Both the position numbers and the translations under genes were made by a program. From assembly GCA_027011225.1 (NCBI GenBank), contig JALVAK010000022.1:1-38406 (forward strand): 38,406 nt of DNA, in the 5' to 3' direction. This document shows positions 2,530 to 35,423 of the stretch, one piece after another (the stretch's first letter is position 1; every line of letters starts with the position of its first letter). The stretch comes from Nautiliaceae bacterium (GTDB lineage Bacteria; Campylobacterota; Campylobacteria; Campylobacterales; Nautiliaceae). The notes below the pieces were generated by a model. The model had not been told where the DNA came from. It made no database searches and saw nothing but the letters and a program-made list of their open reading frames with translations.

Positions 2530-2554
2530 TAAAAGTAGGTTACACTTTTCCTTT

Positions 2555-18017: not shown

Positions 18018-18044
18018 TTTTTAACAATTAGAGAAAAACACAAA

Positions 18045-19604: not shown

Positions 19605-19616
19605 TTAAAAAGCAAT

Positions 19617-19680
19617 TGTGAATGTTGAATTGTGAATTGTGAATGACCATGCTTTTAATTCAACATTCATAATTCATAAT
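19617..19680. repeat. Intergenic inverted repeat
   Basis: GAATGTTGAATT on the left pairs with AATTCAACATTC on the right, within the gap between terminase and portal genes. Similar TTCATAATTCA-type sequence recurs at 21500-21535. Typical of AT-rich nomadic repeats. Confidence 0.6.
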
Positions 19681-19699
19681 TTATAATTTTGGAGAAAAC

Positions 19700-20848
19700 A
19701 TGGCACTAAAAATAAATAAAAGAATTGGCGATATTACACCAAACTTTAACCCTAGGTATTTTAAAGAAGCATACAACAATTATAAACTCGGACGTGTTGC
19801 TAAACTAGTTGCTATGATTGAGTTTGCCGAAATAGACTCGCACGTGGCTGGGTGCTTACTTGGACGTGATGCGGGGTATAAAAAAGAGTGGTCCATAACT
19901 CCAGCATCCGATAATGAACAAGATGTTCAAATTGCCGAGTTCTTTACAGAATACTTCAAATCAATTGGCATGAGAGATTTGTTTGAAGATATAATGGATG
20001 CAAAAAAGAAAAAATTTGTTGTCTTAGAATTTGAAAATTGGGATATATTAAAAGTGGGCAACCAAGAAAAACAAGTTCCAACAGAAATTAGAAAAATGCA
20101 CCAAAAATATTTTAGGCTCGATACTAAAGATAACAACAAACTAAAAATTGATGATGGCAACAACCTTTTAGATATTCCAGAAACTGGTGGCTTTCCTATT
20201 GTTTACAAGCGTAACCCAATAATGCTACCAGTATTACGAGATTTTATACTAAAAGAATTTGGTGTAGAAAGTTGGGCAGCATTTATGGAAACCTTTGGCG
20301 AACCCTTTATTATTGGTAAATATCCACCAGGCTCCGATGCAGCTTTTATTAGCCAGCTCGAAGAAGCTGTAAACTCACTTGGTGCATCAAGTAGAGGCGT
20401 TGCTCCTATGGGTTCCGAAATTGAAATAAAAGAGAGCCATCGTAGCACCGGAGACCACGAAAAGTTTGCGGGATACTCCGATAAAGGAATTGCCATTTCT
20501 CTACTAGGGCATGCAAATGCCGTGCAACAAAGCTCCACAATGCAAATTGGCGAAAACCTTGCACCATACAAAGTAAAGTTAGAACTTGCTGTTGACGATA
20601 TTTATTTTATAGAAACACAAATACAAGCACTATTACGGTTTCTAATTATTCGTAACTATGCAGGAGTTACAAAATTTCCTACTTTTAGCATAGACAAATC
20701 GGAACCAATAAATGTAAAAGAATTTCTTTTGGTTTTAGACCAGGCATACGAGCAAGGTATGGAAGTTAATCCATCGGAATACGCAAAACTTGGGATGCAA
20801 GTAAGTGATAAACAAAAACCTCTTTCAAAAACTGATTTGTTGGATTAA
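19700..20848 (+). CDS. Portal protein (Mu gp29/DUF935 family), 382 aa
   Basis: Good GGAG site before the ATG. The sequence has the DUF935 hallmarks: DSHVAGCLLGRDAGYKKEWSITPASD near the start, then the segment ILKEFGVESWAAFMETFGEPFIIGKYPPGSD and SRGVAPMGSEIEIKES, followed by ISLLGHANAVQQSS. These forms recur in Mu-like portals. The portal ring connects head and tail and is the packaging channel. Somewhat shorter than Mu gp29. The gpF-like minor head gene that normally follows is not here but at 30148-30891. Confidence 0.93.
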   Translation: MALKINKRIGDITPNFNPRYFKEAYNNYKLGRVAKLVAMIEFAEIDSHVAGCLLGRDAGYKKEWSITPASDNEQDVQIAEFFTEYFKSIGMRDLFEDIMDAKKKKFVVLEFENWDILKVGNQEKQVPTEIRKMHQKYFRLDTKDNNKLKIDDGNNLLDIPETGGFPIVYKRNPIMLPVLRDFILKEFGVESWAAFMETFGEPFIIGKYPPGSDAAFISQLEEAVNSLGASSRGVAPMGSEIEIKESHRSTGDHEKFAGYSDKGIAISLLGHANAVQQSSTMQIGENLAPYKVKLELAVDDIYFIETQIQALLRFLIIRNYAGVTKFPTFSIDKSEPINVKEFLLVLDQAYEQGMEVNPSEYAKLGMQVSDKQKPLSKTDLLD

Positions 20849-20852
20849 GATT

Positions 20853-21350
20853 ATGAGTTTTTTGGATAGCAGTAAACGGCAAGTATTCTTAAACAAAATT
20901 GCTCTTGCAATAAGGTTTATTATCCGTAATAGAACCAAAGAGGGCAAGGACGTTGAAGGAAATCCTTTTAAAGCCTACAACCTTAATTATGCTAAAAAAA
21001 GGAAACGCCACGGCTTACCAACATCGCCACCAGATTTAGAGTTTGATGAAAAGTCTGGAATGATACACCGCATAGACCACGAGGTATTTAACGATAATAA
21101 ATCAGTGGAAATTTTTATTAACTCTCCACAAAAAGAACAATTAGCAATTTACCACAACATTATGGGTGCTGGTAAAAGCAAAGTGATAAGAGAATTTTGG
21201 GGGTTAAGTAAAGCAGAAAATGAAAAACTATTTACGCTAATTGACGATACAATGGGCGATTTAGCTATTAAAATGACAGAAGAAGAAGTAGTTGAAATAT
21301 TAAAAGATTTAGAAAAACAATCTACAAAAACAGTTTTTAGAGATAAATAA
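20853..21350 (+). CDS. Phage virion morphogenesis protein (Mu gpG-like), 165 aa
   Basis: Start set at 20853, just after the portal stop; the longer frame from 20805 lies inside the portal gene. Contains the typical gpG/tail-completion segment RTKEGKDVEGNPFKAYNLNYAKKRKRHG and the REFWGLS motif late in the protein. Such proteins act in head-tail joining. Confidence 0.85.
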   Translation: MSFLDSSKRQVFLNKIALAIRFIIRNRTKEGKDVEGNPFKAYNLNYAKKRKRHGLPTSPPDLEFDEKSGMIHRIDHEVFNDNKSVEIFINSPQKEQLAIYHNIMGAGKSKVIREFWGLSKAENEKLFTLIDDTMGDLAIKMTEEEVVEILKDLEKQSTKTVFRDK

Positions 21351-21546
21351 AAAGCATGTCATTTCAAAATGACAGATTAAGATTAAAGAGCTTTTGCTTT
21401 TCAACTTTAGCTCACTTTAGGCACTTTTAGAAAAAGATTAAGAATTAAGAGTAAGATTAAGAAAAACAATGATGAATTATAAACAAAAGCCCTTTGCTCT
21501 TAATTCACAATTCATAATTCAGCATTCATAATTTATTGGAGGAATA
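21351..21546. repeat. Repeat-rich intergenic region
   Basis: Contains a small hairpin GTCATTT-CAA-AATGAC (about 21358-21372), CACTTTAGGCACTTTTAG (related to the terminator at 22543-22587), several GATTAAGA/AATTAAGA runs and TTCATAATTCA repeats near 21510-21530. No gene is seen. Confidence 0.6.
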
Positions 21547-21963
21547 ATGGCACTAGTTACAAACGCATGGGTAAAAGATAATTTTGTTCAATTTAACAGT
21601 TACTATATTGATGAAAATGGAGTTTATCAAGAAACAATTTTAACTAGCGAAATTGAACTTAGCGAAAATAAACTTAACGAATATGTTGATGTAGATGCAG
21701 ATTCTCTTACAAGTTCGTTAAAACTGCACCTACTTAATATTATTAAATATCGTGGTTTTGTGCGTAAACATGGCGATACCGAGTTTGACCGTGATCCGCA
21801 AATTGTAAAAGATTACAACGCTACTATTGAAACTTTAGAAAATATTAAAAGTGGCGAGGGTAAACTTGAAGCTCGTGAAATTGCAACCGAAAACACTGTT
21901 AAAGTTACTGCTAAACCTCGTAGGTTTGGTAATGCCGATGGTAGTAGAAATTGGTTCACCTAA
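21547..21963 (+). CDS. Head-tail connector protein (Mu gp36/DUF1320-like), 138 aa
   Basis: GGAGG precedes the ATG. The helical middle (SLKLHLLNIIKYRGFVRKHGDTEFDRDPQIVKDYNATIETLENIKSGEGKL) with the pattern DRDPQIVKDYNATIETLENIKSG fits DUF1320 connector proteins of Mu-like phages. Residues 1-40 form an N-terminal beta section. C-terminal NADGSRNWF resembles other Mu-like family members. Confidence 0.75.
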   Translation: MALVTNAWVKDNFVQFNSYYIDENGVYQETILTSEIELSENKLNEYVDVDADSLTSSLKLHLLNIIKYRGFVRKHGDTEFDRDPQIVKDYNATIETLENIKSGEGKLEAREIATENTVKVTAKPRRFGNADGSRNWFT

Positions 21964-22085
21964 TGCTTCGATACAATTCCAACATAAAAAACATGTCGGA
22001 ATCACTCAGCAACCGTTGAACTGATAAAAAAAACAAGTGTCATTGCGAACCCAACGCTTTTTGTTGGGTGTGGCAATCTCCAACA
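21962..22085. repeat. Nomadic palindromic repeats
   Basis: TGCTTCGATACAATTCC and GGAATCACTCAGCAACC face each other (21963-22014), the same family as 11283-11363. They are followed by a GTCATTGCGA..GCAATCTCC element (about 22039-22083) with an inner CCCAAC-GCTTTTT-GTTGGG hairpin. Both types are common dispersed repeats in bacteria. Confidence 0.7.
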
Positions 22086-22109
22086 GATTAAGAATTAAGA
22101 GGAAGTAAA

Positions 22110-22535
22110 ATGATAAACATACAAAATGCAATTATAGCAAGGGTTAAAGAAGCAACTAATAGCGATGGTGCTTTAATATTTGATGCAAATTCCGTTGGTG
22201 CTTATACAAATGAGATTAGTAAAAAGGGTATTGAAACATCTAAAAAACTTCCAGCAGCTTTAGTTATGTTCCGCTCTGGCGAATATAAAGAGGGCAAGTT
22301 TGATGTTTTGGTTATTACCGAATCTCAAAGTTTTGATAAACAGACTAATATGAATAATAATTTAAATCAAAGCTCCGAGCTATTAAATTATTTTTCTAAC
22401 TACCCAGGATGGGATTACGAAGCAAAACCTTATGTTATAGACGAAAGTGAACAAAAAAGCCAAATTGGGTTAGTAATGCAATCAGGAAGGCATACGGTTA
22501 TTGGTGTTTCTATTTATGTTAAAAAACTAAGTTAA
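22110..22535 (+). CDS. Connector/tail-joining protein (Mu gp37/DUF1834-like), 141 aa
   Basis: Follows the DUF1320 gene as in Mu. The sequence (NIQNAIIARVKEAT..., LPAALVMFRSGEYKEGKFDVLVITESQSFDKQTNMNNNLN, GVSIYVKKLS end) fits DUF1834 proteins: an N-terminal helix followed by beta-strands. GAGG with a 7-base spacer supports the start. Last gene of the rightward packaging/connector operon, followed by a strong bidirectional terminator. Confidence 0.75.
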   Translation: MINIQNAIIARVKEATNSDGALIFDANSVGAYTNEISKKGIETSKKLPAALVMFRSGEYKEGKFDVLVITESQSFDKQTNMNNNLNQSSELLNYFSNYPGWDYEAKPYVIDESEQKSQIGLVMQSGRHTVIGVSIYVKKLS

Positions 22536-22803: not shown

Positions 22804-23454
22804 TTATGCCTCGGCACTAAACAATGTATTTTCGTTTGCTTCAAAACGCCTCTGTTTTTTGCTACCACTTATATACTGATATGGTATTAAGTGAGTTGCA
22901 TTGTAGGGTTTATAAAACCCTAACAGCTTATCCGCTTTTTTCATTTTAGAGTATGGCAAATCTAATGCTTTGCAAAGTTCTTTACGGCTTAAACCTAACT
23001 TTCTGAACTTTTTATACCTTCCCAATTTACGTGGCGGTATTTCGTAAAGCACAGCATCATCCATATTGGCAATTTGTAATTGCTCTTCTAAACTCTCATA
23101 CTTAATTGCTAGTTCTTGATACTCCGATACGTGGATATACTCTTTGGTTCTAATTGCCTTTATCATTTTAGCAAAAACTCTACGAAACTCTTTTGCTTTT
23201 TCAGAACGTGATATCATACAGAGAGTGTAAATTTGTTCTTCACTTAAAAGTAATGTTGGACGACCAACGACATTTTTAAACTTAGAGTTTAAAAACCCTT
23301 CAAATTCATCAATGTTTCTTTTAATAGTTTGATGAATATTTTGGATTGAAATTCCAAGTACTTCTGAAATTTTAGAGATGGAAAGATAAAATTCATTATC
23401 CTTGCGGATAACTTCTGTTTCGGATAAACCGAAATACTGCATTGTGTTTGTCAT
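22804..23454 (-). CDS. Phage regulatory/antirepressor-like protein (ORF6N/Bro-N type), 216 aa
   Basis: Start set at 23454 with a TGGAGG site; the longer frame enters the structured leader. The N-terminal 100 residues (YLSISKISEVLGISIQNIHQTIKRNIDEFEGF..., LLLSEEQIYTLCMISRSEKAKEFRRVFAKMIKAIR) have the layout of Bro-N/ORF6N/Rha-like DNA-binding domains. The C-terminus (YKKFRKLGLSRKELCKALDLPYSKMKKADKLLG) looks like a second HTH. Such proteins are phage antirepressors or regulators. Its leader contains a folded element (23495-23561), suggesting post-transcriptional control. Confidence 0.7.
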   Translation of the reverse strand: MTNTMQYFGLSETEVIRKDNEFYLSISKISEVLGISIQNIHQTIKRNIDEFEGFLNSKFKNVVGRPTLLLSEEQIYTLCMISRSEKAKEFRRVFAKMIKAIRTKEYIHVSEYQELAIKYESLEEQLQIANMDDAVLYEIPPRKLGRYKKFRKLGLSRKELCKALDLPYSKMKKADKLLGFYKPYNATHLIPYQYISGSKKQRRFEANENTLFSAEA

Positions 23455-23494
23455 TTCTGACCTCCAGTAAATTAATTGAACATTAATAAAAAAA

Positions 23495-23561
23495 AGGCAA
23501 CTCTTGTTCACTCCTTTACTGGAAGGGAGCATCCGCACTCACGTAGCGGATAGAGTTGCCT
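23495..23561. ncRNA. Three-way-junction structured element in a leader
   Basis: Outer stem AGGCAACTCT (23495-23504) / AGAGTTGCCT (23552-23561). Inner hairpins are CTCCTTT/AAGGGAG (23511-23517, 23523-23529) and ATCCGC/GCGGAT (23531-23536, 23546-23551). On the minus strand it is followed by eight Ts. A direct repeat CTCCAGTAAATT..TTGAAC flanks the area (23462 and 23613). It could be a terminator-attenuator, a small RNA or a remnant mobile palindrome. No known RNA family is recognised. Confidence 0.45.
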
Positions 23562-24940: not shown

Positions 24941-25026
24941 ATATAAACGTATATACGTTTTAGTTTTACCACTTTGTTAAGTTATTGTTTTACTTACACT
25001 TTTAAGCCTATCTGGTTAGTAGGTAG

Positions 25027-25144
25027 TTATCCAGCACCAAAAAGCGGTGCTGGATAATGGCGGCGGCGATGCTATTCGCTTTTTGGTCTGGATAACCAAC
25101 GATTCAACCCTTCACGCTTGCGTGAGGGTTAATCGCCGCCGCCA
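25027..25144 (+). repeat. 118-bp ORF-less cassette, copy 1
   Basis: First of five identical copies. The 5' half is a perfect hairpin, TTATCCAGCACC-AAAAAGC-GGTGCTGGATAA. The 3' half is a compact attC: R'' GGATAAC at 25090-25096, arm CGATTcAACCCTtCACGC with extrahelical C and T, and arm GCGTGAGGGTTAATCG. TGGCGGCGGCGAT in the middle pairs with ATCGCCGCCGCCA at the end. It starts right after the G of GTTATCC, that is, at an attC cleavage point. Confidence 0.9.
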
Positions 25145-25477
25145 TTATACAACTGTTTCTGGAAATTTTATTAAATGTCCAATATGTCCAATCAATTCAT
25201 TAGTGTCCATTATTCCATCATATTCATCTGCAATTTGTTCATTAAATATATACTCAGCGTCTTTTCCAATGGCGTCCATCACGTCTTTAGTCGTTTTGTT
25301 GCTAATACTCACAGCCAATCCACCCCATCTACATCTAACATAAATCATTCTGCCGTCTTCAAGCCATCCCTCCCATTGTGATGGGCAAGCCTGGCAAGTT
25401 TGGTAAAATCGTTGTATAACCAACGGTTCGTTTTGACCACCTTTTACGCTCGCTTTTTTTGAGAGTTCTTGTTTCAT
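25145..25477 (-). CDS. Cassette protein 1, 110 aa, hypothetical
   Basis: Stop TAA is the complement of TTA in the core at 25145-25147. Translation from 25477 (AGGAA site, about 10-base spacer) begins inside the attC loop and gives a leader MKQELSKKASVKGGQNEPLVIQ, largely attC-encoded. The cassette-specific part follows (FYQTCQACPSQWEGWLEDGRMIYVRCRWGGLAVSIS..., with CQAC and a Trp/Gly-rich beta segment). Function unknown. Its leader is nearly shared with cassette protein 5, which argues that initiation within attC is real or at least recurrent. Confidence 0.7.
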   Translation of the reverse strand: MKQELSKKASVKGGQNEPLVIQRFYQTCQACPSQWEGWLEDGRMIYVRCRWGGLAVSISNKTTKDVMDAIGKDAEYIFNEQIADEYDGIMDTNELIGHIGHLIKFPETVV

Positions 25478-25543
25478 TTTAAGTTATTCCTTTTTTTTAT
25501 TTTTTAGTTCTACGGTGGCAACACAACCGCAAGTCCGTTATCC
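25414..25543 (+). other. attC site of cassette 1
   Basis: R'' GTATAAC (25414-25420) and R' GTTATCC (25537-25543). The 5' arm GGTTcGTTTTGaCCACC pairs with GGTGGCAACACAACC, leaving C and A extrahelical with six bases between. The long loop contains the ATG of the cassette-1 gene on the minus strand. Confidence 0.8.
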
Positions 25544-25655
25544 AGCACCAAAAAGCGGTGCTGGATAATGGCGGCGGCGATGCTATTCGCTTTTTGGTCT
25601 GGATAACCAACGATTCAACCCTTCACGCTTGCGTGAGGGTTAATCGCCGCCGCCA
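25538..25655 (+). repeat. 118-bp ORF-less cassette, copy 2
   Basis: Identical to copy 1 over its full length. It lies between the R' cleavage point of the cassette-1 attC and the TTA that ends cassette gene 2. Confidence 0.9.
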
Positions 25656-25979
25656 TTAGGTGGAAAATTTTTCTGTAAATCCCTTAATACCTTCTTCTGT
25701 CCCCCACACATAAAACCCATCTTCATTATATTCCTCATATTTTGGTGGGTTACTTATTCTAATTGGCTCACTTTTAGGATTAAAGTCTCCTAATGTATCC
25801 AAGCTACCTCTCCACATAGTTCTTACACTTCCCAATACACCAACTGGAGAAGCCATTATTACCAATTTACGTTCGTTTTTTGGCACATCTAAATCATCAC
25901 ATCCTACATCCTCACCATAAATTAAAGTAACAGAATAATTTCCAGCTTGTTTAACTTCTTCTAATTTTTCAAGTAACAT
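25656..25979 (-). CDS. Cassette protein 2, 107 aa, hypothetical
   Basis: Start placed at the ATG at 25979, which has GGAG seven bases upstream; a first ATG at 25991 has no such site. The stop TAA coincides with the core TTA at 25656-25658. The protein is alpha/beta (MLLEKLEEVKQAGNYSVTLIYGEDVGCDD..., VIMASPVGVLGSVRTMWRGSLDTLGDFNP, EDGFYVWGTEEGIKGF) and unrecognised. Typical of small orphan proteins in chromosomal integron cassettes. Confidence 0.75.
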   Translation of the reverse strand: MLLEKLEEVKQAGNYSVTLIYGEDVGCDDLDVPKNERKLVIMASPVGVLGSVRTMWRGSLDTLGDFNPKSEPIRISNPPKYEEYNEDGFYVWGTEEGIKGFTEKFST

Positions 25980-26014
25980 TTCTTTCTCCATTTTTATTTA
26001 TTTTTAAATCATCC

Positions 26015-26102
26015 ACCTAACAACTCACGCAAGCCGACCGATATTACGCTTTGGCTAATTTCAATATTCCATCTCGGACGGCTTCGTTCGAGTCCGTTAT
26101 CC
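26015..26102 (+). other. attC site of cassette 2
   Basis: R'' ACCTAAC (26015-26021, an exact RYYYAAC) and R' GTTATCC (26096-26102). The arm CGcAAGCCGaCCGA pairs with TCGGACGGCTTCG. The extrahelical C and the A six bases on match the canonical attC pattern; the A is opposite an A rather than fully extra. Confidence 0.82.
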
Positions 26103-26213
26103 AGCACCAAAAAGCGGTGCTGGATAATGGCGGCGGCGATGCTATTCGCTTTTTGGTCTGGATAACCAACGATTCAACCCTTCACGCTTGCGTGAGGGTT
26201 AATCGCCGCCGCC
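26097..26213 (+). repeat. 118-bp ORF-less cassette, copy 3 (altered end)
   Basis: Identical to the others through the final GCCGCCGCC. The terminal A is then replaced by GATCC followed by a full GTTATAC core (26219-26225). It is the only copy with a standard G before TTA and may show the ancestral 3' boundary. Confidence 0.85.
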
Positions 26214-26219
26214 GATCCG

Positions 26220-26441
26220 TTATACATGTTTGGCGTTGGCACTCTCGATAACCTTCAATATTCCGAATCTATCATACAGCTTTGTCATTCGACCGCCCCC
26301 ATATTGCAATGCTTTCACTATCCTACCCATTTCATCAACTAATAGTTTGTTCTGTTTCCTCCAATCACCTTCCAGTAATACTGCTTCATCAAATGTGAAA
26401 TCTTCTTCTCTCACCATTCGCAATTCATTAATATTTCTCAT
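26220..26441 (-). CDS. Cassette protein 3, 73 aa, hypothetical
   Basis: ATG at 26441 follows GGAGG with a 6-base spacer. The stop TAA is part of the complement of GTTATAC (26220-26222). Charged alpha/beta protein (MRNINELRMVREEDFTFDEAVLLEGDWRKQNKLLVDEMGRIVKALQYGGG...). No family recognised. A short leader separates it from the R'' of the following attC at 26465. Confidence 0.75.
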   Translation of the reverse strand: MRNINELRMVREEDFTFDEAVLLEGDWRKQNKLLVDEMGRIVKALQYGGGRMTKLYDRFGILKVIESANAKHV

Positions 26442-26464
26442 TTTAATCCTCCACGCCAATAAAC

Positions 26465-26582
26465 GTATAACCAATCGCACAAAACGACAAGTTTTACGCT
26501 TGGCTTTTTAGTTTATTATTTAGTTAGTTTATCAATCATTTTTGCATCTTAAACTTGCGTTTTAGCTCCAATGCCGTTATCC
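26465..26582 (+). other. attC site of cassette 3
   Basis: R'' GTATAAC (26465-26471) and R' GTTATCC (26576-26582). The arm GCAcAAAACGaCAAGTTT pairs with AAACTTGCGTTTTAGC, leaving extrahelical C and A with six bases between. This is the clearest attC of the array. Confidence 0.88.
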
Positions 26583-26694
26583 AGCACCAAAAAGCGGTGC
26601 TGGATAATGGCGGCGGCGATGCTATTCGCTTTTTGGTCTGGATAACCAACGATTCAACCCTTCACGCTTGCGTGAGGGTTAATCGCCGCCGCCA
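26577..26694 (+). repeat. 118-bp ORF-less cassette, copy 4
   Basis: Identical to copy 1. It is inserted between the cassette-3 attC R' and the TTA that ends cassette gene 4. Confidence 0.9.
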
Positions 26695-27033
26695 TTAGCC
26701 ATTTTTACTTGCTAAAAATTTTATTGTCATTTCTATAATATTATCATCATTTGTGCCGTATACACATTTGCCACTATCTGCATATCCTGGTTCAACAACA
26801 TTATACCCCACTTGGGTTGCAATATGCTCCTTAACTTCCGCAAGTAAAAAATCTTTAGTAGTAGCCCTATTAGGCTCTTTTTTGTGGCTAACAATCGCTG
26901 TATTTGAATTGCTAATGTGTTTGTTTATATCACGTCTTAACTCAATTAAGTTTTCTTTTGTCGGTTCAATGTTAAATGTAAGCCACGCTTCTATTTCTTC
27001 TAAAAATTGTCTATCTGTTTCAAAGTTTCTCAT
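26695..27033 (-). CDS. Cassette protein 4, 112 aa, hypothetical
   Basis: ATG at 27033 with AAAGGAG upstream; longer frames enter the attC remnant. The stop TAA lies in the core TTA at 26695-26697. Helical N-terminal half (NFETDRQFLEEIEAWLTFNIEPTKENLIELRRDINKHIS) and a C-terminal region with KDFLLAEVKEHIATQVGYNVVEPGYADSGKCVYGTNDD. Unrecognised. Its own attC is truncated. Confidence 0.75.
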   Translation of the reverse strand: MRNFETDRQFLEEIEAWLTFNIEPTKENLIELRRDINKHISNSNTAIVSHKKEPNRATTKDFLLAEVKEHIATQVGYNVVEPGYADSGKCVYGTNDDNIIEMTIKFLASKNG

Positions 27034-27049
27034 TTTTAATCTCCTTTTA

Positions 27050-27083
27050 TTTACGCAATCAAATAAACTCAAATCCGTTATAC
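27050..27083 (+). other. Truncated attC of cassette 4
   Basis: Only the 3' arm and R' GTTATAC (27077-27083) are recognisable (CAAATCC before the core), with a TTTACGC remnant of the 5' arm at about 27050. No R'' box or full stem can be drawn, so this site is likely unable to recombine efficiently. Confidence 0.5.
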
Positions 27084-27359
27084 TGCTTTAACCTTTGCAT
27101 AAAAAGAGGGATATTCGCACCCTTCTTTTGTTATTTCAAAAGAATCATGTTCCAATACTACGTCCCAGCATCCTGATCTGTGGCTGTAATTAACTCTATG
27201 TATTTCTGCTCCAGCTGGTATATTTGTAATTTTTACTTTGTTGGAAAACAACCCTATTAAGTCCATATCTCCAAGAGATAATATTTTACGCCGTATAACC
27301 AACGGTTCGTTTTGACCACTTTTACGCTTGTTTGTTTTCCTTTCTACTAAATCTTTCAT
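27078..27359 (-). CDS. Cassette protein 5, 93 aa, hypothetical
   Basis: ATG at 27359 inside the attC loop, after AGGAG with an 11-base spacer; the stop TAA is inside the core (27078-27080). The leader (MKDLVERKTNKRKSGQNEPLVIRRK) shares GQNEPLVI with cassette protein 1 and is encoded by the attC arm. The main part is DLIGLFSNKVKITNIPAGAEIHRVNYSHRSGCWDVVLEHDSFEITKEGCEYPSF, a small beta-rich protein of unknown function. A downstream ATG (GGAG, 2-base gap) could give a leaderless form. Confidence 0.7.
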   Translation of the reverse strand: MKDLVERKTNKRKSGQNEPLVIRRKILSLGDMDLIGLFSNKVKITNIPAGAEIHRVNYSHRSGCWDVVLEHDSFEITKEGCEYPSFYAKVKAV

Positions 27360-27423
27360 AATTTTTGTTACTCCTAAATTGTTTAATTTTATCAGTGGCA
27401 ACACAACCGTATTGCCGTTATAA
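27293..27423 (+). other. attC site of cassette 5
   Basis: R'' GTATAAC (27293-27299) and R' GTTATAA (27417-27423). Same arm sequence as the cassette-1 site (GGTTcGTTTTGaCCACT pairing with AGTGGCAACACAACC), with extrahelical C and A. The loop contains the cassette-5 ribosome site and start codon on the minus strand. Confidence 0.8.
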
Positions 27424-27711
27424 AGCATTTATTAAATTACTTTGGTAAAACTGTCTAACATTCTTATTCTTTTTGGGTTTGCCGTCTTTTTTTAATTCAA
27501 GGCATCTATAAAGGCATTCGCCATAATTTCCGAAAGCACCACTTATTGCGGTTATCTCCTCAATTTTGCCTTTCCCAATATGGTCTTCTATCACATCATT
27601 AACCTTATATTTGTTATTGCTCATAGCATATTTGTATTTGAGCTGTTTTATGGCTTTATTTTTAGCATCATTTATTTCTTTAATTTTGTTATCAAATTTT
27701 TCTTTGGTCAT
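27418..27711 (-). CDS. Cassette protein 6, 97 aa, hypothetical
   Basis: ATG at 27711 follows GGGAG with a 6-base spacer. The stop TAA is formed by the core TTA (27418-27420). A Lys-rich helical N-terminus (MTKEKFDNKIKEINDAKNKAIKQLKYKYAM) is followed by a small beta domain (KYKVNDVIEDHIGKGKIEEITAISGAFGNYGECLYRCLELKKDGKPKKNKNVRQF), like short KOW/SH3-type folds. Unrecognised. Confidence 0.75.
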   Translation of the reverse strand: MTKEKFDNKIKEINDAKNKAIKQLKYKYAMSNNKYKVNDVIEDHIGKGKIEEITAISGAFGNYGECLYRCLELKKDGKPKKNKNVRQFYQSNLINAL

Positions 27712-27734
27712 TTTCAACTCCCATTTAATAATCT

Positions 27735-27860
27735 TTATAACCAGCAACTGCACTTGACCGATTATACGCTTAGGCTATTTTGTTTTATGTTTTGTTAATT
27801 AAATTCATTTTATCTATCTTGCATTTTAACATCGGCAAGTAAGTTGCATTGCCGTTATCC
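27735..27860 (+). other. attC site of cassette 6
   Basis: R'' TTATAAC (27735-27741) and R' GTTATCC (27854-27860). The arm CAACTgcACTTGaCCGAT pairs with ATCGGCAAGTAAGTTG, leaving an extrahelical A and one more extra base. The loop carries the conserved TTATACGCTTAGGC. Confidence 0.82.
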
Positions 27861-27972
27861 AGCACCAAAAAGCGGTGCTGGATAATGGCGGCGGCGATGC
27901 TATTCGCTTTTTGGTCTGGATAACCAACGATTCAACCCTTCACGCTTGCGTGAGGGTTAATCGCCGCCGCCA
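27855..27972 (+). repeat. 118-bp ORF-less cassette, copy 5
   Basis: Identical to copy 1. Follows the R' cleavage point of the cassette-6 attC and precedes the last cassette gene. Confidence 0.9.
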
Positions 27973-27991
27973 TTTTAGTTGTGTTTTGTGA

Positions 27992-28183
27992 TTATGACAC
28001 TATTTCTTCCAAAGTCAGTAATAGTTCTTTTATTTGTTCTATTTCCAAATGGGTAGTGATACAGACTCTTTCATCTTCTATTGTATCGTATGTTTCAACA
28101 TCAACCCCACCATTCGCACTCTCAACACTCATTATCACTATACCTTTTTTATCTACAATGCTACCTCTTATTTTGTTATCCAT
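27992..28183 (-). CDS. Cassette protein 7, 63 aa, hypothetical
   Basis: ATG at 28183 with GGGAG five bases upstream. The acidic protein (MDNKIRGSIVDKKGIVIMSVESANGGVDVETYDTIEDERVCITTHLEIEQIKELLLTLEEIVS) looks like a small beta-strand/helix domain. The stop is about 20 bases inside the cassette rather than in the core. Last gene of the array; unrecognised. Confidence 0.7.
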   Translation of the reverse strand: MDNKIRGSIVDKKGIVIMSVESANGGVDVETYDTIEDERVCITTHLEIEQIKELLLTLEEIVS

Positions 28184-28272
28184 TTTATCTCCCACCACAA
28201 AAACTATTGTAGTTGTTAAATTGTAAATTATTTAATTGGTTTTCTTTCTCATTGCCTTCAAGTTTGTAATAA

Positions 28273-28332
28273 AACTAACAAGCAAATGTGCGGAATTAAA
28301 AATAAATCCGCACATTTGCACCTACGTTATCC
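28273..28332 (+). other. Terminal attC-like site (perfect stem)
   Basis: R''-like AACTAAC (28273-28279), stem GCAAATGTGCGGA / TCCGCACATTTGC (28281-28293, 28307-28319) and R' GTTATCC (28326-28332). It has the attC layout but no extrahelical bases, so it may be poorly recombinogenic, or be a terminator that resembles one. It marks the right edge of the array, next to the DUF5131 gene. Confidence 0.6.
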
Positions 28333-28371
28333 ACTCCACAACCCTTTTCCCGCCATCGGGAAGATGGTCTA

Positions 28372-29034
28372 TCAGCTTTCAACCAACTTTATCCTACCCA
28401 AATTCTTTTTAACAACTACATGATTAGAACCATTTAATACTTTTATTAAATTATCTACTTTAACTCTACTTGGTTCTGGAAGATTATTATTGCCACTATC
28501 TGCACCAATGTTTATCCAACTTGCATCTGCAATAGTTATTAAATTCATTAGCTCTAATAAGTCAAAATCCAATATTGGCTCAATGGTAATAAACTTTGGG
28601 TTTGTAATATTAGTCATTGCTTTTGCCCTACTTAAAGGACTTGGAGAGTTGCTATAAATATTCTTATAGTCTCTATTGCTTTCAATGGTTGTGCCTAATG
28701 TAAATCTATCATCCAAATCAAATTCTGAAAATCTGCTAGGATTTTTTGTTTGTAGCAAATATTTATTGTCAAACTTTTTGCAATAATCTAAAACTTTATT
28801 TATCCAATTAGAGCTAACGTTCTCTGCAAACATATCGTTTGAGCTGCCAACAAATATAAAATTACCACTTCCTAAATCTGTGTTCAATTCTTTTTCATCA
28901 AAACGTATTGGGTTAAGTTTTCCCCATCGTTTCATGTAACAATAAGAGCAATTATGATAACACTCTCCTTTAATTACATTCCAAGTGTGAGTTATAAACT
29001 GATACATATTTCCTTTTTGTTTGTTTAGTGGCAT
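28372..29034 (-). CDS. Phage Gp37/Gp68-type radical SAM-like protein (DUF5131), 220 aa
   Basis: CYHNCSYCY near the N-terminus is a CxxxCxxC-type cluster as in DUF5131. The following FVGSSNDMFAENVSSNWI, LLQTKNPSRF and GTTIESNRDYKNIYSNSP resemble known phage Gp37/Gp68 proteins. The C-terminus has WINIGADSGNNNLPEPSRVKVDNLIKVLN. DUF5131 proteins are widespread in phages with unproven enzymatic role; an iron-sulfur enzyme acting on nucleotide or RNA is often suggested. An internal ATG at 29007 with AAGGA is an alternative start. Confidence 0.75.
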   Translation of the reverse strand: MPLNKQKGNMYQFITHTWNVIKGECYHNCSYCYMKRWGKLNPIRFDEKELNTDLGSGNFIFVGSSNDMFAENVSSNWINKVLDYCKKFDNKYLLQTKNPSRFSEFDLDDRFTLGTTIESNRDYKNIYSNSPSPLSRAKAMTNITNPKFITIEPILDFDLLELMNLITIADASWINIGADSGNNNLPEPSRVKVDNLIKVLNGSNHVVVKKNLGRIKLVES

Positions 29035-29047
29035 TCTATTTTCTCGC

Positions 29048-29521
29048 TTAATATTTACATCCGTTTGGGCAAATTGCTCTACCAGTTGTTGTATAGTTTA
29101 CCCAACTAAAGCATTTAGGACACAGACCTACAAAGTGCATAGCTTTAGTGTAGTAATATTTAGTTCTATATTTAATTTTTAATAGTATCATTTTTTTGCT
29201 TTTGGGTGTCGAAGTAAGATAATCCCACAGTTTGCCCGATGTAGATAAATCAACAATTTCATCGTCTTGTGTTACCATGCCATCTTTATATTTTCTGCCA
29301 AAATCTAATTCAAAACAGAAGTATTCTATATCGCATATCCCACCAGGATAAGTAGGGTATTCTGCTTGTAGTAATTTCATTATTTGATTGTTTATTAACG
29401 AGTTGTTGTAACTCTCTATAAAGCCTCCAAAAACTTTGTTAATATGTTTGGTATTGGCTTCATCTATTTTCTGTTGCTTTTCAATAACTTCTATTGTTTC
29501 TATAAATAATTCTTTTTCCAT
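29048..29521 (-). CDS. Hypothetical phage protein with C-terminal zinc ribbon, 157 aa
   Basis: The last 30 residues (CPKCFSWVNYTTTGRAICPNGC) form a four-cysteine zinc-ribbon candidate. The N-terminal part is helical with a Tyr/Gly-rich middle (AEYPTYPGGICDIEYFCFELDFGRKYKDG). No known family. It lies between the DUF5131 gene and a small membrane protein in the leftward early/middle cluster. Confidence 0.6.
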   Translation of the reverse strand: MEKELFIETIEVIEKQQKIDEANTKHINKVFGGFIESYNNSLINNQIMKLLQAEYPTYPGGICDIEYFCFELDFGRKYKDGMVTQDDEIVDLSTSGKLWDYLTSTPKSKKMILLKIKYRTKYYYTKAMHFVGLCPKCFSWVNYTTTGRAICPNGCKY

Positions 29522-29567
29522 TATGCACCATTGTTTTTAATTAGTGTTCTTAAATAATTTTCTCGCT

Positions 29568-29861
29568 TTACCCTTTATTAAGAGATGTTTCCATTTTCTC
29601 TTTTGCTTCTTCTAACAATGCACTAGTAATTCTTAGAGAGATTAAAAGTTTGTTAGTTTTTGCTTCCTGCAGAATTAGTGCATTTGCTTTTTCATCAATT
29701 GCCATACAGAGAGTATCTGTTTTACTCTTAAATAATGTGTAGTTACTACTATTACGTTTGTTCAAATGCGTAACTTCTTTTTGGTGTTTCCACTTCATTG
29801 TGTAGTAAGTGGCAACTATAGAAACAAAAATAAATGATGCTGCAATTGTGTAGTGAATCAT
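29568..29861 (-). CDS. Small membrane-anchored coiled-coil protein, 97 aa
   Basis: An N-terminal transmembrane segment (IHYTIAASFIFVSIVATYYTMKW) is followed by a charged helical region (KALILQEAKTNKLLISLRITSALLEEAKEKMETSLNKG) likely in the periplasm. Layout resembles i-spanin-like or other phage envelope proteins, but it is far from the lysis genes, so that is only a possibility. Start overlaps the upstream gene. Confidence 0.55.
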   Translation of the reverse strand: MIHYTIAASFIFVSIVATYYTMKWKHQKEVTHLNKRNSSNYTLFKSKTDTLCMAIDEKANALILQEAKTNKLLISLRITSALLEEAKEKMETSLNKG

Positions 29862-30076
29862 AATAGCTCCTCAAATAAATCTGTAAATTTTTTCTTGCTC
29901 CACTCAGTAAAAACTTGCCATTTAATTTTTATTAGTATTTTTATAATTGTTGGTATTACTAAACGTGGACGGTTATTTTTGAATGTTATATTACTAACCT
30001 TGTAAATTCCATTTGCTTTAACCTGAATGGTAGATAGCTCTGGATAAGTATGTACCGTAATAGCAGTTGTATTCAT
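29858..30076 (-). CDS. Hypothetical protein, 72 aa
   Basis: Start chosen at 30076 (GGGAG, 10-base spacer) over the longer frame from 30115. Lys/Ile-rich small protein with no motif (MNTTAITVHTYPELSTIQVKANGIYKVSNITFKNNRPRLVIPTIIKILIKIKW). It overlaps the downstream membrane-protein gene by four bases. Function unknown. Confidence 0.5.
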   Translation of the reverse strand: MNTTAITVHTYPELSTIQVKANGIYKVSNITFKNNRPRLVIPTIIKILIKIKWQVFTEWSKKKFTDLFEELL

Positions 30077-30147
30077 AGTTCTTTTCTCCCTATTTGTTTT
30101 TCCATTTTGCTTCATTCTTACTCTTAATCTTAATCTTAATCCTAATC

Positions 30148-30891
30148 TTAATCTTTTGGCGGTTTATAAAACGGATTTGGCTCCCAATCGTGCCTACAGT
30201 TCCAACCACCGCAATAAGTTATTACTGGCTTAAGTTGTTTCTCTTGTCTTGGATCATTATCCATTGCCCTTATTTCATCAATGTGAAAATGATTGCCTAC
30301 TTTTTCTCTGCAAAAATCACGAGTTGTTTCACGGATATTTCCCATATATTTATACCAATAAACCTCTCCTATATTGGCTTTTTGGTGTTTAACTTCACGA
30401 GCATAACCTTTAATTTGTGTTGCAGCTAATACGTTGGCATAATCGGAAACACCACCACCAACTTTTTTAATTCTATGGCGTAATTCATAATAATCTACTT
30501 TTTCAAAAAGAGCTTTACGTGTAACTTTGCTTAGTTTTTTTACCCATTTTTTCTCGTAACTTCCAAGACGTGTTGCGTTAATTTTTTCTATTGCTTGAAT
30601 TTTTTGATGGTCCCTTGTTAAATCAACTCCAAGATCATAGTAAAGTCTGTTAGTTACTTCAATAATATCATCGTATCGCATGAAAAGTTCATTAGAAAAA
30701 CTTTCATACGGCACACCAAATATTTGCGATATCTCTTTTTTTAGTTCCTTTAAATCTGCGTTTGGATTTTGGTTTGCGTAATCAATAATTTTTTGTATTA
30801 CACTCTCTTTGTAGGTATCAAAAGAAACAGAGCTTTGCAATCGCTTAATCCTTTTGGTAAATTCTTTATATCTATTATCAAATTCAGACAT
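30148..30891 (-). CDS. Mu gpF-like minor head protein, 247 aa
   Basis: ATG at 30891 overlaps the stop of the zinc-ribbon gene (ATGTCTGA), so this start is preferred over 30972. The C-terminal 110 residues have the Mu F/SPP1 gp7 head-morphogenesis signature: YANVLAATQIKGYAREVKHQKANIGEVYWYKYMGNIRETTRDFCREKVGNHFHIDEI, then the HxxxCRHDWEPNP-type end (GGWNCRHDWEPNP). In Mu, F follows the portal. Here it is about 9 kb away, on the opposite strand and beyond the cassette array. Confidence 0.82.
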   Translation of the reverse strand: MSEFDNRYKEFTKRIKRLQSSVSFDTYKESVIQKIIDYANQNPNADLKELKKEISQIFGVPYESFSNELFMRYDDIIEVTNRLYYDLGVDLTRDHQKIQAIEKINATRLGSYEKKWVKKLSKVTRKALFEKVDYYELRHRIKKVGGGVSDYANVLAATQIKGYAREVKHQKANIGEVYWYKYMGNIRETTRDFCREKVGNHFHIDEIRAMDNDPRQEKQLKPVITYCGGWNCRHDWEPNPFYKPPKD

Positions 30892-31081
30892 TTGTTTTCT
30901 TATTACTCGCTGTAACTTTTTTATCAAAAATTTCTTTTGTTTTCCACTTAGCACCACATTGTAAACATACATGATACCTATATTTTACCGTTCTAAAACG
31001 TTCTGTTCTATAAATGGTTGTTGCTCTTGGAACTTCTTTGCTCGGCAAAAAACCAGCATTTTTACAATCGGGGCATGGCAT
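30884..31081 (-). CDS. Zinc-ribbon protein (NrdR/Ogr/Com-like), 65 aa
   Basis: N-terminal CPDC (residues 3-6) and CLQC (about 38-41) form a zinc ribbon with a basic region (YRTERFRTVKYRYHVCLQCGAKWKTKE). The pattern resembles the NrdR and phage Ogr/Delta zinc fingers and the Mu Com protein. It may regulate late genes or bind nucleic acid. Its ATG overlaps the MuB stop (TAATG) and its stop overlaps the gpF start, so all three are translationally coupled. Confidence 0.65.
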   Translation of the reverse strand: MPCPDCKNAGFLPSKEVPRATTIYRTERFRTVKYRYHVCLQCGAKWKTKEIFDKKVTASNKKTNV

Positions 31082-32082
31082 TATAAGTTACTCGCTTTGC
31101 TATATGTTTGTTTCTCTTGGCTCAGTGCAATTTTATCTAATGCTTTCATAACTACTTTAGATTTTTTATGGGAATTACCTTGTTTAATTACATCGTGAAC
31201 TGTTGTTTTGCTAATTTGTGTATTGCTAGTTTCGTTAATTTCCTCGGCAATAACTTTGTAGCTTATTGCTTCGGGGTAGCTCTCTTTCATTGCATAATAT
31301 GCTTCGGCTGGAGAGGGTTGCACAACATCATCATCCAAAACAGAACGCCCTGCATTATAAGCCTCTTGCATCTTTTGTTCAACGTAATTTATCATATCTA
31401 GCGGTTGACGTTTACTTATTGCAATCCTTTTACGAACTGTTGGTTTAATTGCACCTCTAAAAACTGTACGCAAAAACTCAATGCGTTCTTCGTAATTTAA
31501 CCATCCAGCAGATTCAGATAGTTCTAATATGTGCGAACGTAAAAAGGCTTCTTCTACTTGGGCTAATTTAACTTTTAATAATGGATGCCCTATTAACACT
31601 ACCGAAAACAAAGGAGAAACTCCTAAATACTCAGCTTCACGTAATTCTTTTAATGCTCGGTAAATAAGTTTGTTTATTCGGTGGGCTTCTTCAATTACTA
31701 AACAAATATTCTTGTTGCTTTTAATATGCAATTCGCCCATAATACGTGCCAATTGTAGCTTTCGTGCGGCACGGCTACCTCGTTTTGTTTCGCCAGATAG
31801 TTTTGTTACCATATCTGTAAGTATTGTTCCAATACTCATAAATTCTTTGCTAGGGTCGTTTGCATATACAAAAATTGTATTATTACTTAACTCGTTCTTT
31901 GCAATTTCAAACAATGTAGATTTACCTATACCACGTTCCCCAACCACAGCAAGCATTTGTTGTTCGTTAATTGCTTCTTTTATAAACTCTTTTCTATCAT
32001 CGCAAGTTTCGCTCCAATAATCCCCCATTTTCTTTACGCCAAAATGTTTTAATAATCTGTTAGATATTTTATACTGTTGCAT
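31081..32082 (-). CDS. MuB-like AAA+ ATPase, target-DNA activator, 333 aa
   Basis: Walker A GERGIGKST (residues 48-56) and Walker B CLVIEEAH (about 127-134) mark an AAA ATPase, with a downstream arginine region. It fits MuB, the ATP-dependent DNA-binding protein that stimulates the transposase and enforces target immunity. The C-terminal 60 residues (YKVIAEEINETSNTQISKTTVHDVIKQGN) contain a probable HTH, whereas Mu B carries its HTH at the N-terminus. Directly downstream of the DUF3164 gene and transposase in the leftward operon. Confidence 0.88.
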   Translation of the reverse strand: MQQYKISNRLLKHFGVKKMGDYWSETCDDRKEFIKEAINEQQMLAVVGERGIGKSTLFEIAKNELSNNTIFVYANDPSKEFMSIGTILTDMVTKLSGETKRGSRAARKLQLARIMGELHIKSNKNICLVIEEAHRINKLIYRALKELREAEYLGVSPLFSVVLIGHPLLKVKLAQVEEAFLRSHILELSESAGWLNYEERIEFLRTVFRGAIKPTVRKRIAISKRQPLDMINYVEQKMQEAYNAGRSVLDDDVVQPSPAEAYYAMKESYPEAISYKVIAEEINETSNTQISKTTVHDVIKQGNSHKKSKVVMKALDKIALSQEKQTYSKASNL

Positions 32083-32084
32083 TT

Positions 32085-32297
32085 TTAGTTCCCTTTAATT
32101 GTTGTTTTATTCAGTTCAATTATTTCAGATAAAACTGCTTTCCAATGCCTACCGTTTTTACTAATTATATATTGAGCTAGCAGAAACGCCAAAACTTCAT
32201 CTTCAATAACCACAAGGCGTTTAGCCAGCTCTTCACTGCATTTTTTCATTTCGCTATCAGTAAGTTCTTTCATTGTATTAACGGTTGGGTTTTGCAC
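32085..32297 (-). CDS. Hypothetical protein, 70 aa
   Basis: Begins with GTG immediately after the TAA of the DUF3164 gene, with GAGGTG upstream, and ends three bases before MuB. Acidic helical protein (KELTDSEMKKCSEELAKRLVVIEDEVLAFLLAQYIISKNG). Function unknown; position suggests a small early/transposition-module protein. Confidence 0.6.
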   Translation of the reverse strand: MQNPTVNTMKELTDSEMKKCSEELAKRLVVIEDEVLAFLLAQYIISKNGRHWKAVLSEIIELNKTTIKGN

Positions 32298-32930
32298 TTA
32301 CACCTCTGCCCCAATAGTGCTAAAGTTAAGATTTACATTTTTCCATTTGCCGTTTTTACTTTTACGTGTTCTTAACATTAGGTATTCTTTTTTGTTGCTA
32401 TAAGTCATTGCATCTTTAATCAATACCGATGCTTCACGCCAATCAACATCATCAATATCCCAATTTGCAAAGTCTATGAGTGCAGACCTTCCAATATTCC
32501 CATTCCCATCCATCTTTAATAACTTTTTAGTAACAGCAACAAGATTTTCATTGGAGCCTTTTTCCCATTTCTTAATACATTGGGCTATTTTGGCTTTCGC
32601 CAATTCTTTCCCTTCATCAAGGTCTTGGACTTTTGGGCTTGTTCTAACGACTTGCATCAAGCCGTCATAACTTGTGATAGTAACGTTCCCAAATTCCGCA
32701 TTCTCTACATTCTTAAATTCGGATAACCATTTGTCGTATTTTGATATTTTCCCAACAATAGTTTTTTTATTGGACACCATTCTTTTACTTAAACGACCAG
32801 CATGTGCAAAAATTTCTTCTACTACCAAATGTCTTTTAAGGTGGTCTTCCCTAATGCTTTCAGTTGGGACTTCAACTCCATCTTTATCTAAGTAAAATTT
32901 TGGAAGCCTTTTTCTGTTTATCTTTCTCAT
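32298..32930 (-). CDS. DUF3164 family phage protein, 210 aa
   Basis: Start placed at 32930 after AAGGAG. Sequence features match DUF3164 as I recall it: FYLDKDGVEVPTESIR near the N-terminus, FGNVTITSYDGLMQVVR, then KIAQCIKKWEKGSNENLVAVTKKLLKMDGNGNIGRSALIDFANWDIDDVDWREA. DUF3164 genes are widespread in the early region of Mu-like phages; function is not established. Sits between MuA and MuB here, an arrangement seen in Mu-like prophages. Confidence 0.82.
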   Translation of the reverse strand: MRKINRKRLPKFYLDKDGVEVPTESIREDHLKRHLVVEEIFAHAGRLSKRMVSNKKTIVGKISKYDKWLSEFKNVENAEFGNVTITSYDGLMQVVRTSPKVQDLDEGKELAKAKIAQCIKKWEKGSNENLVAVTKKLLKMDGNGNIGRSALIDFANWDIDDVDWREASVLIKDAMTYSNKKEYLMLRTRKSKNGKWKNVNLNFSTIGAEV

Positions 32931-32940
32931 TTTGTTCTCC

Positions 32941-34524
32941 TTACCCAAATGCTTTTTTTGGGTTATTTATTGCTGAAATAACTGAGTCTATGTTTCTTTT
33001 TATCAAGCCCTCTTCATCTTCTAAAAATTCGTCAAATATATCTTTGTAATCGGTGTAGTTTTTACCTTTTTTAACCATTTTACCAATGTATGCCTTGGCT
33101 TCGTAAACTGAGTTAAATTTGTAATCTTCGCTATACTCGGCTTCATCAAACTTACTTTTGGGTTCAATAATTTCTTGTGTAGGTGGTATATAATTTATTT
33201 TAGATTTTTTATCGGTCTCTGAGCTAAGTCGAAGATCTTCCTTAATTTCGCCTTCCAGTTTTTCTTTATAAGTTTGATGTTCTCTGTGTTCAAAGTTACC
33301 AAGGGATATAAAGCCTTCGGTTACTTCAAGAGCAAATGGTTTATGATATTCGTCCGATAGTTCGCCCATAAATTCGCCACTGTAACTAATATAAACCCCA
33401 ATCCACTTATCTAATGCAAATGCTGGAGCTTTAAGTTTTACTTGTTCTCCCTTAAAGGTTACAGAAACAACTAAATCGTTATTTACTTTTCGTTTCCAAG
33501 TCTTAAATATATATTCACTTATATCACGTTCTATTCTACGCACAGGATGTGCTGTAATGGATGATAAATAATTGTGTGCTTTACTTCCTGAACGAACTGG
33601 ATGTTCTGTTGCTTGATTTTCAATCATAAACTCGTGTAATAAATCGTTATAATCCGATAGGTGTATTGTTCCACCATTACCTATTTTTAATGCTAAAGGT
33701 AGCTCAAAACGTTGCCACATTAACCGCCATACAGATTCTTGTTTCTGTATTCCACGTTTTTCATAGGGCATTACTAATTCTTTTTTTATCCCTAGTTTTT
33801 CAAGCATTTGGTCGGTTTGCTTGTTATCCAACGGACCATTATCCATTTTAAGAACTTCTGGCAAGTGCATTAAATTTAACTCGTCTTCACTTCTGTTGTA
33901 GGCAAAACGCATAAGTTTTAATCCAAGCAAAGTAGATTCTCCAGTTGCTGCATAAGCACGAGCAACGGCAATTCGTGAAAAACTATCAACAATTCCACCA
34001 AGCCAAAGGCGTAATTTTTTGCCATCTTCTTTATATGCAAGCACACGGCTAACCTTAAGTATTAAATCATCTCCATCTTTTTTATGAATATTAAAATATT
34101 TAGAACGAGAAAAATCTAACTGATGCTGTTGGTTTGCATAATCGGGTTCAACACGCACAATTATATCACGTTGCCTAAAACCTTTTTCTCGTAACCTTCG
34201 GTTTACTGTGCTTACTGTTAAATTTTCTGCACCAACAACCATCTCATTTTTTAAGATATTAATACATACTTCTGTTGATATCTCACGTTCTGTCATCCCT
34301 AAAGCTCTGCCCTCTAGCTTCATTTTGCCTATTTTATCAATAAGCCTATCTTCTATTTTAGGAACTCTTACAATGTTTTTTGATGCTCCAAACTCTTTTC
34401 GCACTACTCTATAAATTGTTGCCTCGCTAACGCCAAATTGCCTTGCAATTCCGGATACAACTTGCCCTCGCATCCCTTTACGAACTCCTTTGAGTTCATT
34501 CTTTATTGCTATTGCGTTAATCAT
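32941..34524 (-). CDS. MuA-like DDE transposase, 527 aa
   Basis: N-terminal HTH (QVVSGIARQFGVSEATIYRVVRKEF) followed by further DNA-binding helices and the catalytic core: D137 in HQLDFSRSKYF, D228 in KMDNGP and E263 in KQESVWRL, a D..D-34-E layout, with VDSFSRIAV between. The C-terminal part contains a nomadic repeat in frame (33219-33234) giving the sequence LRLSS. Shorter than Mu A (663 aa). With MuB it drives integration and replicative transposition. No Shine-Dalgarno is obvious. Confidence 0.92.
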   Translation of the reverse strand: MINAIAIKNELKGVRKGMRGQVVSGIARQFGVSEATIYRVVRKEFGASKNIVRVPKIEDRLIDKIGKMKLEGRALGMTEREISTEVCINILKNEMVVGAENLTVSTVNRRLREKGFRQRDIIVRVEPDYANQQHQLDFSRSKYFNIHKKDGDDLILKVSRVLAYKEDGKKLRLWLGGIVDSFSRIAVARAYAATGESTLLGLKLMRFAYNRSEDELNLMHLPEVLKMDNGPLDNKQTDQMLEKLGIKKELVMPYEKRGIQKQESVWRLMWQRFELPLALKIGNGGTIHLSDYNDLLHEFMIENQATEHPVRSGSKAHNYLSSITAHPVRRIERDISEYIFKTWKRKVNNDLVVSVTFKGEQVKLKAPAFALDKWIGVYISYSGEFMGELSDEYHKPFALEVTEGFISLGNFEHREHQTYKEKLEGEIKEDLRLSSETDKKSKINYIPPTQEIIEPKSKFDEAEYSEDYKFNSVYEAKAYIGKMVKKGKNYTDYKDIFDEFLEDEEGLIKRNIDSVISAINNPKKAFG

Positions 34525-34546
34525 TTTGTCTAGCCGTTTTAGTTAA

Positions 34547-34867
34547 TTAAATTTCTACTTTTAGTTGTTGTAACTCATTAATTCCTAACCAATCAGTTTT
34601 AAGCTCATGTTTAATTGCTCTTTGTAAATCTTTAATAACTTCATTTAATTCTACTTCTGTTGTTATTAACAATTGCATTCCATCTATTAGTTTTAGCACA
34701 TAAATATCTATGCTAAAATCAGTTCTTTTTAACTTTACTACCAAATATTTAGTTTTGCTTAAACCTACAAACCTTAATTCCACTCTTCTACTATACCTTG
34801 TTACATCAACTACCAAATCCCTATGTTCTAATGCTTCTATTGCTTTATATAATTCCAGATTACTCAC
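34547..34867 (-). CDS. Hypothetical phage protein, 106 aa
   Basis: Mixed alpha/beta small protein (MSNLELYKAIEALEHRDLVVDVTRYSRRVELRFVGLSKTKYLVVKLKRTDFSIDIYVLKLIDGMQLLITTEVELNEVIKDLQRAI). Starts eight bases inside the GemA-like gene end. Likely cotranscribed with the transposase. Family unrecognised. Confidence 0.6.
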   Translation of the reverse strand: MSNLELYKAIEALEHRDLVVDVTRYSRRVELRFVGLSKTKYLVVKLKRTDFSIDIYVLKLIDGMQLLITTEVELNEVIKDLQRAIKHELKTDWLGINELQQLKVEI

Positions 34868-35414
34868 AAATGCCCCTCAAATTGTAATTTTTAGTATCAT
34901 TTATAACCGAGTATTCTATTTTTGAATTAATACTTAAAATCCGTTGCATACCTATAATTACCTTTACCGCTTGCCAATTCATTAACATTTCTACACTCGA
35001 TAAATTCTTAGTCTGCTTACCAATAAATTTAACTGTTGTATCTTTATTCCATTTTAGCAAACCCTCTAAAATTTTAATTCTTTCTGCTTGAAGTTTTGTT
35101 AAATGACGTTTATACCCACGTTTCCCACTTCCGTAATATTTCTTTTGCTTCTGAACCGATGGGGAGGGAACTCCGGCAGAGCTAGGGCGAACTCTACCAG
35201 AGTGGGTTTTTGAATCGGCTAGATTCGTAAGATCATTTATTAAAACACCAGCTTGTGTAAAAGTCATTTCCGTGCAACTTTTAACCCCATAACCACTCAA
35301 TGCAGCTCTATATTCATCATCATTGCTAAAAACAATTTTGGATATGGTTTTTATAGCCTTAATCTGCTTTTTGGTAATATCAAAGCTGTGTGTCGAAGTA
35401 TTAGCTGGTTTCAT
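34860..35414 (-). CDS. Mu gp16/GemA-like protein (DUF1018), 184 aa
   Basis: ITKKQIKAIKTISKIVFSNDDEYRAALSGYGVKSCTEMTFTQAGVLINDLTNL (about residues 13-65) fits the N-terminal half of GemA/DUF1018 proteins, and RILSINSKIEYSVINDTKNYNLRGICE the C-terminal half. GemA influences host gyrase and early expression in Mu. A GC-rich stretch (35157-35201) encodes SGRVRPSSAGVPSPS in the middle, unlike the rest of the gene and probably inserted. Ordinary length otherwise. Confidence 0.7.
   Translation of the reverse strand: MKPANTSTHSFDITKKQIKAIKTISKIVFSNDDEYRAALSGYGVKSCTEMTFTQAGVLINDLTNLADSKTHSGRVRPSSAGVPSPSVQKQKKYYGSGKRGYKRHLTKLQAERIKILEGLLKWNKDTTVKFIGKQTKNLSSVEMLMNWQAVKVIIGMQRILSINSKIEYSVINDTKNYNLRGICE
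35157..35201. repeat. GC-rich palindromic insert in GemA-like coding sequence
   Basis: A short GC-rich stretch with CTCCGGCAGAG and ACTCTACCAGAGT hairpins lies in an otherwise AT-rich gene and keeps the frame open (SGRVRPSSAGVPSPS). It looks like a palindromic element inserted in frame. Confidence 0.45.
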
Positions 35415-35423
35415 ATCAATATC

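Follow-up and report, generated by a model that had tools for sequence, protein, structure and literature searches.

A probable integrase-less integron cassette array carried by a Mu-like Campylobacterales phage, with reversed genes and an interspersed gene-less structured cassette

Clusters of attC sites without an integrase, known as CALINs, have already been published from phages, both temperate and virulent, in which attC sites were recombined with attI1 (Qi et al. 2023, PMC9892861). Gene-less cassettes have been described in Vibrio superintegrons and in oral Treponema; they are bounded by attC cores, contain no gene and, where studied so far, act as promoters (PMC11014356, PMC6557892). 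In attC sites the choice of strand is directed by extrahelical bases on the R''-L'' arm, which on the bottom strand take the form of a G and then a T 6-8 nt further on (PMC2727003). The locus described here differs from the phages of Qi et al. in that its carrier is a Mu-like phage of the Campylobacterales, in that all its cassette genes are reversed and in that multiple copies of a gene-less, structured cassette are interspersed in the array.

The window, meaning the whole stretch of 38,406 nucleotides that was analysed, is an entire contig (G000:C22), devoid of a terminal repeat, of a Nautiliaceae MAG comprising 1.64 Mb in 192 contigs. Phage genes flank the array on both sides, as a first-pass annotation of this DNA had stated. 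Mu-like genes for Portal_Mu, terminase, head protease and major head protein lie to its left, with the terminase large subunit, Portal_Mu and their neighbours occupying positions 17365-22535 of the + strand, and a leftward block on the - strand (28372-37270) encodes DUF5131, a MuB-like ATPase, DUF3164, a MuA-like transposase and GemA. The presence of the MuA/MuB pair (phrog_310, phrog_296), Portal_Mu, GemA and DUF3164 defines a Mu-like transposable phage, which shares Portal_Mu, the MuB-like ATPase, the MuA-like transposase, DUF3164, GemA and the head protease with phages Mu, SuMu and Mushu. Its portal is 24-26% identical to those of known phages, and tblastn searches with its transposase against 50,697 phage records did not return any match. 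Searches for related phages, with or without the array, which the first-pass annotation had proposed, likewise returned none. A genome of the same genus harbors a second Mu-like prophage with a Mu-like portal (G191:C182, L167-L168), for which no tblastn match to the proteins of the window was obtained. Two further genes were observed near the array: one encoding a Bro-N domain protein (22804-23538), in the interval from the portal block to the array, and the DUF5131 gene (28372-29034), a homologue of phrog_2045 that adjoins it.

The array (25026-28334) contains six complete attC sites and a truncated one, in line with the original reading. The complete sites present paired R''/R' boxes with AAC/GTT cores around paired L''/L' arms. 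They were detected with our own search for R''/R' boxes and an arm duplex, run on the array after excision of the repeats described below, which returned exactly these six; in 200 dinucleotide shuffles it did not return any. The same scan identified two sites on the + strand and one on the - strand in the other 35 kb of the contig, and detected attC-aadA1 of plasmid R100 as a positive control; an Rfam search of the array matched nothing relevant. All sites were annotated on the + strand. The first (attC 1, 25414-25543) combines R'' GTATAAC and R' GTTATCC with an unpaired C-N6-A (C-GTTTTG-A). An unpaired C-AAGCCG-A, as in aadA1, is found in attC 2 (26015-26102; R'' ACCTAAC), C-AAAACG-A in attC 3 (26465-26582), C-GTTTTG-A in attC 4 (27293-27423) and GC-ACTTG-A in attC 5 (27735-27860), while attC 6 (28272-28334), at the right end of the array, forms a perfect stem in which extrahelical bases are not clear. 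The truncated site (27057-27083) consists of an R' core only, GTTATAC at 27077-27083. In five of the six sites, the + strand arm adjoining R'' thus has a C and an A that are unpaired and separated by 5-6 nt, in agreement with the observation of such bases in several sites made from the sequence at the outset.

The six sites cluster within 3 kb, where two or more clustered attC sites without intI define a CALIN, and the absence of an integrase from the array holds for the whole MAG (91% complete), in which no integron integrase (TIGR02249) scored above cut-off. The suggested look-up of a host intI therefore returned none, and none above the family cut-off was detected in the 20-21 genomes of its family either; among 200 Campylobacterales genomes, 25 do encode an intI above cut-off. 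We therefore read the region as a CALIN located inside a Mu-like phage. It comprises seven cassettes with genes and five copies of one that has no gene, here designated E.

Seven small open reading frames lie between the sites, as had been annotated, and all of them are encoded on the - strand. Gene A (25145-25477, 110 aa) has its stop at the core TTA and its start inside attC 1; genes B (25656-25991, 111 aa) and C (26220-26441, ending on the core TTA) belong to no family; gene D (26695-27033) weakly matches a phage tail-tube or virion protein family; gene F (27078-27359) starts inside attC 4 and ends on the core TTA, as does gene G (27418-27711) at its end; and gene H (27992-28183) completes the set. 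Altogether, six of the seven genes have a TAA stop codon complementary to the core TTA, and in two the start codon falls inside an attC site. The genes are intact and tightly spaced, with ribosome-binding sites. Distant homologues of gene A (31-32% identical) were found in Brevundimonas and Caulobacter jumbo phages, and these homologues, together with the weak tail-tube match of gene D, give the cargo a phage-derived appearance; an AlphaFold prediction for gene A, with a pLDDT of 40, was left out of the evidence. No homologues of the cassette genes were detected in 299 genomes of the order, matches outside the window reaching only ~14 bits, at noise level. With no such homologue in the order and no intI in the MAG or its family, the proposal that the phage spreads cassettes between hosts, or serves as a cassette sink, did not find support.

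Cassette genes known so far generally run along the top strand of attC. On the coding strand of aadA1, the R''-L'' arm presents an unpaired C, six bases and an unpaired A, and phage sites 1-5 follow the same order. Given this order and the location of the extrahelical bases on its R''-L'' arm, the + strand is the attC top strand under the published rule (PMC2727003), and the seven genes, lying on the - strand, are consequently all reversed with respect to normal cassettes. None of the seven shows the canonical arrangement of a gene on the top strand with attC 3' of its stop codon. The genes are co-directional with the leftward block of the phage, and no excess of promoters was detected in the phage region (17 sites, against 16.2 expected).

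Beyond the features annotated at first, the array presents, in addition to this reversed orientation, five gene-less repeats with counterparts in chromosomal integrons. The repeats (118-122 nt) are interspersed in the array and 100% identical, whereas the attC sites differ from one another. They lie on the + strand at 25026-25146 (E1, the left end of the array), 25537-25657 (E2), 26096-26213 (E3), 26576-26696 (E4) and 27854-27974 (E5), with fold z-scores of -8.7/-9.4 for E1, and the repeat is absent elsewhere in the MAG. Each copy begins at a GTTATCC core, directly 3' of an attC site in E2-E5. Within each, a GTTATCC...GGATAAT hairpin is accompanied by a GGCGGCGGCGAT...ATCGCCGCCGCC GC stem, an inner box reading GGATAAC and an arm that resembles attC and has an unpaired C-N5/6-T. 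Cassette boundaries at G|TT cores can be read directly from the sequence. The right-hand core of E is A|TT in four copies, and in E3, identical over 118 nt, the right end differs and reads GATCCG|TTATAC, giving a GATCCG|TT core. With A|TT instead of G|TT as the right core in four of the five copies, E may now be unable to move alone. Folded as DNA, the phage repeat reaches -42.2 kcal/mol on the bottom strand and -41.0 on the top strand, a small gap.

Two models were used: R1, which included the phage sequence, and R2, a covariance model derived from 20 copies, all of them chromosomal. R1 gave matches in 34 of 399 genomes, distributed over 14 of 87 genera; the MAG of the window is among the 34, leaving 33 others. 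The elements sit in intI-bearing genomes of the order, the named carriers being mostly Sulfurimonas, and their starting point is either attI (…TTGAATAAATA|GTT) or an attC of 64-72 nt, at its R' core. Copies inside one genome are mostly 93-100% identical, with at least 12 copies in one case (G365). A 27-sequence alignment revealed compensatory changes in 32 of 55 predicted pairs, and the bottom strand is the more stable fold in all 34 chromosomal copies and in the phage copy, with a mean over the 35 copies, as DNA, of -55.9 kcal/mol against -46.2 for the top strand. The Campylobacterales have a gene-less cassette family with a conserved three-way-junction fold, compensatory changes and a bottom-strand bias, features that distinguish it from the promoter cassettes of Vibrio and Treponema. 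No matching family was found in Rfam, and the family was not found in the literature searched.

Other origins considered for E were discarded. For chromosomes, a sense-strand leader RNA of riboswitch type is at odds with the poorer fold of the + strand in 34 of 34 copies; E is not an obligate part of attI, since several attI-like sites run straight into other sequence; and an IS200/IS605-like origin is incompatible with flanks that match G|TT cores and show no fixed target. Several isolated observations were also made. Additional attI-like sites with E occur at positions 5199 and 11902 of one contig (L077, G152:C1), distant from the intI locus of that genome, suggesting that it carries duplicated attI platforms. 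Strong E elements (148-162 bits) were found in two contigs labelled Candidatus Gracilibacteria (L128 and L144), which are probably mis-binned Campylobacterales DNA. A contig from the same genus as the MAG (L065, G211:C5, positions 1-4667) carries methyltransferase-like genes, an attC-like stretch at ~1010-1043 and, where the contig ends, a partial E element (position 4421); the occurrence of this cassette-like contig with a partial E element indicates that the genus meets integrons. In other viral contigs, 27 pattern matches to E were all attributed to chance by the model, as was the occurrence of a 17-mer of attC 1 in four such contigs, where attC is absent.

The phage repeat has the layout of this family, in that it starts at an attC core, ends at the next core and encodes no gene. 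Matches of R1 in the window are circular, because the phage sequence is part of that model, and were set aside for the question of membership. R2 with default filters returned no match in the window; with filters off, its full-length matches to the phage repeats, E1 among them, lay on the expected strand and reached 33.8 bits (E 1.9e-7 in 3.5 kb), or 25.3 bits for E3, compared with 24.6 bits at best on the opposite strand. The phage repeat is shorter, and at most 60% identical to any chromosomal E. It is likely, though not proven, that it belongs to, or derives from, the gene-less cassette family of chromosomal integrons in the order.

The empty default-filter search would also fit an unrelated phage or host repeat, such as a REP-like sequence or an element for RNA stability or termination between operon genes, that resembles the family through convergence of GC-rich hairpins. 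Also in its favor, the hairpins come directly after stop codons, and the transcribed minus strand, taken as RNA, has a very stable fold (-68.8 kcal/mol). Against such convergence, the repeats start exactly at attC cores, maintain the order of hairpin, GC stem, inner AAC box and attC-like arm with its unpaired bases, score higher in unfiltered searches on the expected strand and occur nowhere else in the MAG, and we regard it as decidedly unlikely. The position of E also bears on whether the array could be a normal forward array on the minus strand, in which every gene precedes its own attC and E forms part of each gene cassette. The stop codons overlap the TAAC core, as is frequent in ordinary cassettes, and palindromic attC sites score on both strands in the scan, but five of the six sites carry the strand-setting bases (PMC2727003) on the R''-L'' arm of the + strand and in the order known from aadA1, and the orientation of E, whose hairpin adjoins the attC core, matches that in chromosomes. 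A forward array thus appears very improbable. The gene following an E-like element is forward in 31 and reversed in 3 chromosomal cases, against 0 forward and 5 reversed in the phage.

It is also conceivable that the phage carries the array as a fossil, no longer active, in which repeat identity stems from homologous recombination or gene conversion and not from IntI. The lack of intI nearby, in the MAG and in its family would be expected under this scenario, as would the degenerate A|TT cores, the truncated attC and the fusion of the E3 end to another core. The intact state, tight spacing and ribosome-binding sites of the genes and the retention of extrahelical bases in most attC sites speak against decay, making a fossil array unlikely.

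The explanation that we favor, with reasonable confidence, is a CALIN built by IntI acting in trans, read by the phage and containing a cassette of the E family. The array would have entered the phage within its leftward operon, with some Campylobacterales host supplying the IntI that cut and joined bottom strands at AA|C cores. By such bottom-strand recombination, this trans-acting IntI may have introduced E as well as the gene cassettes and multiplied E along the array in a copy-and-paste manner. The very stable bottom-strand fold of E may make it a preferred substrate. The cassette genes would be expressed by read-through from the minus-strand phage operon; only left-pointing genes would then be useful, which would explain the reversal of all seven. 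The phage could subsequently transport the array from host to host. More tentatively, and with considerable doubt on our part, E might be a minimal selfish mobile element of integrons, whose three-way-junction fold, conserved on the bottom strand, makes it a preferred IntI substrate, which multiplies through chromosomal arrays of Campylobacterales, often in first position at attI, and which hitched onto a Mu-like phage moving between hosts.

Phage-borne CALINs (PMC9892861) and gene-less cassettes were known; the Mu-like carrier, the complete reversal of the genes and the interspersed structured cassette with chromosomal counterparts are new. If its attC sites are active, a transposable phage could bring cassettes to almost any chromosomal place or host, linking two gene-transfer systems, and the reversed genes suggest that cassette arrays can be tuned to the transcription of the phage itself. 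The gene-less family, with a one-strand fold conserved by compensatory changes, a frequent location beside attI and its high copy number in a single genome, provides a clear test of cassette success.
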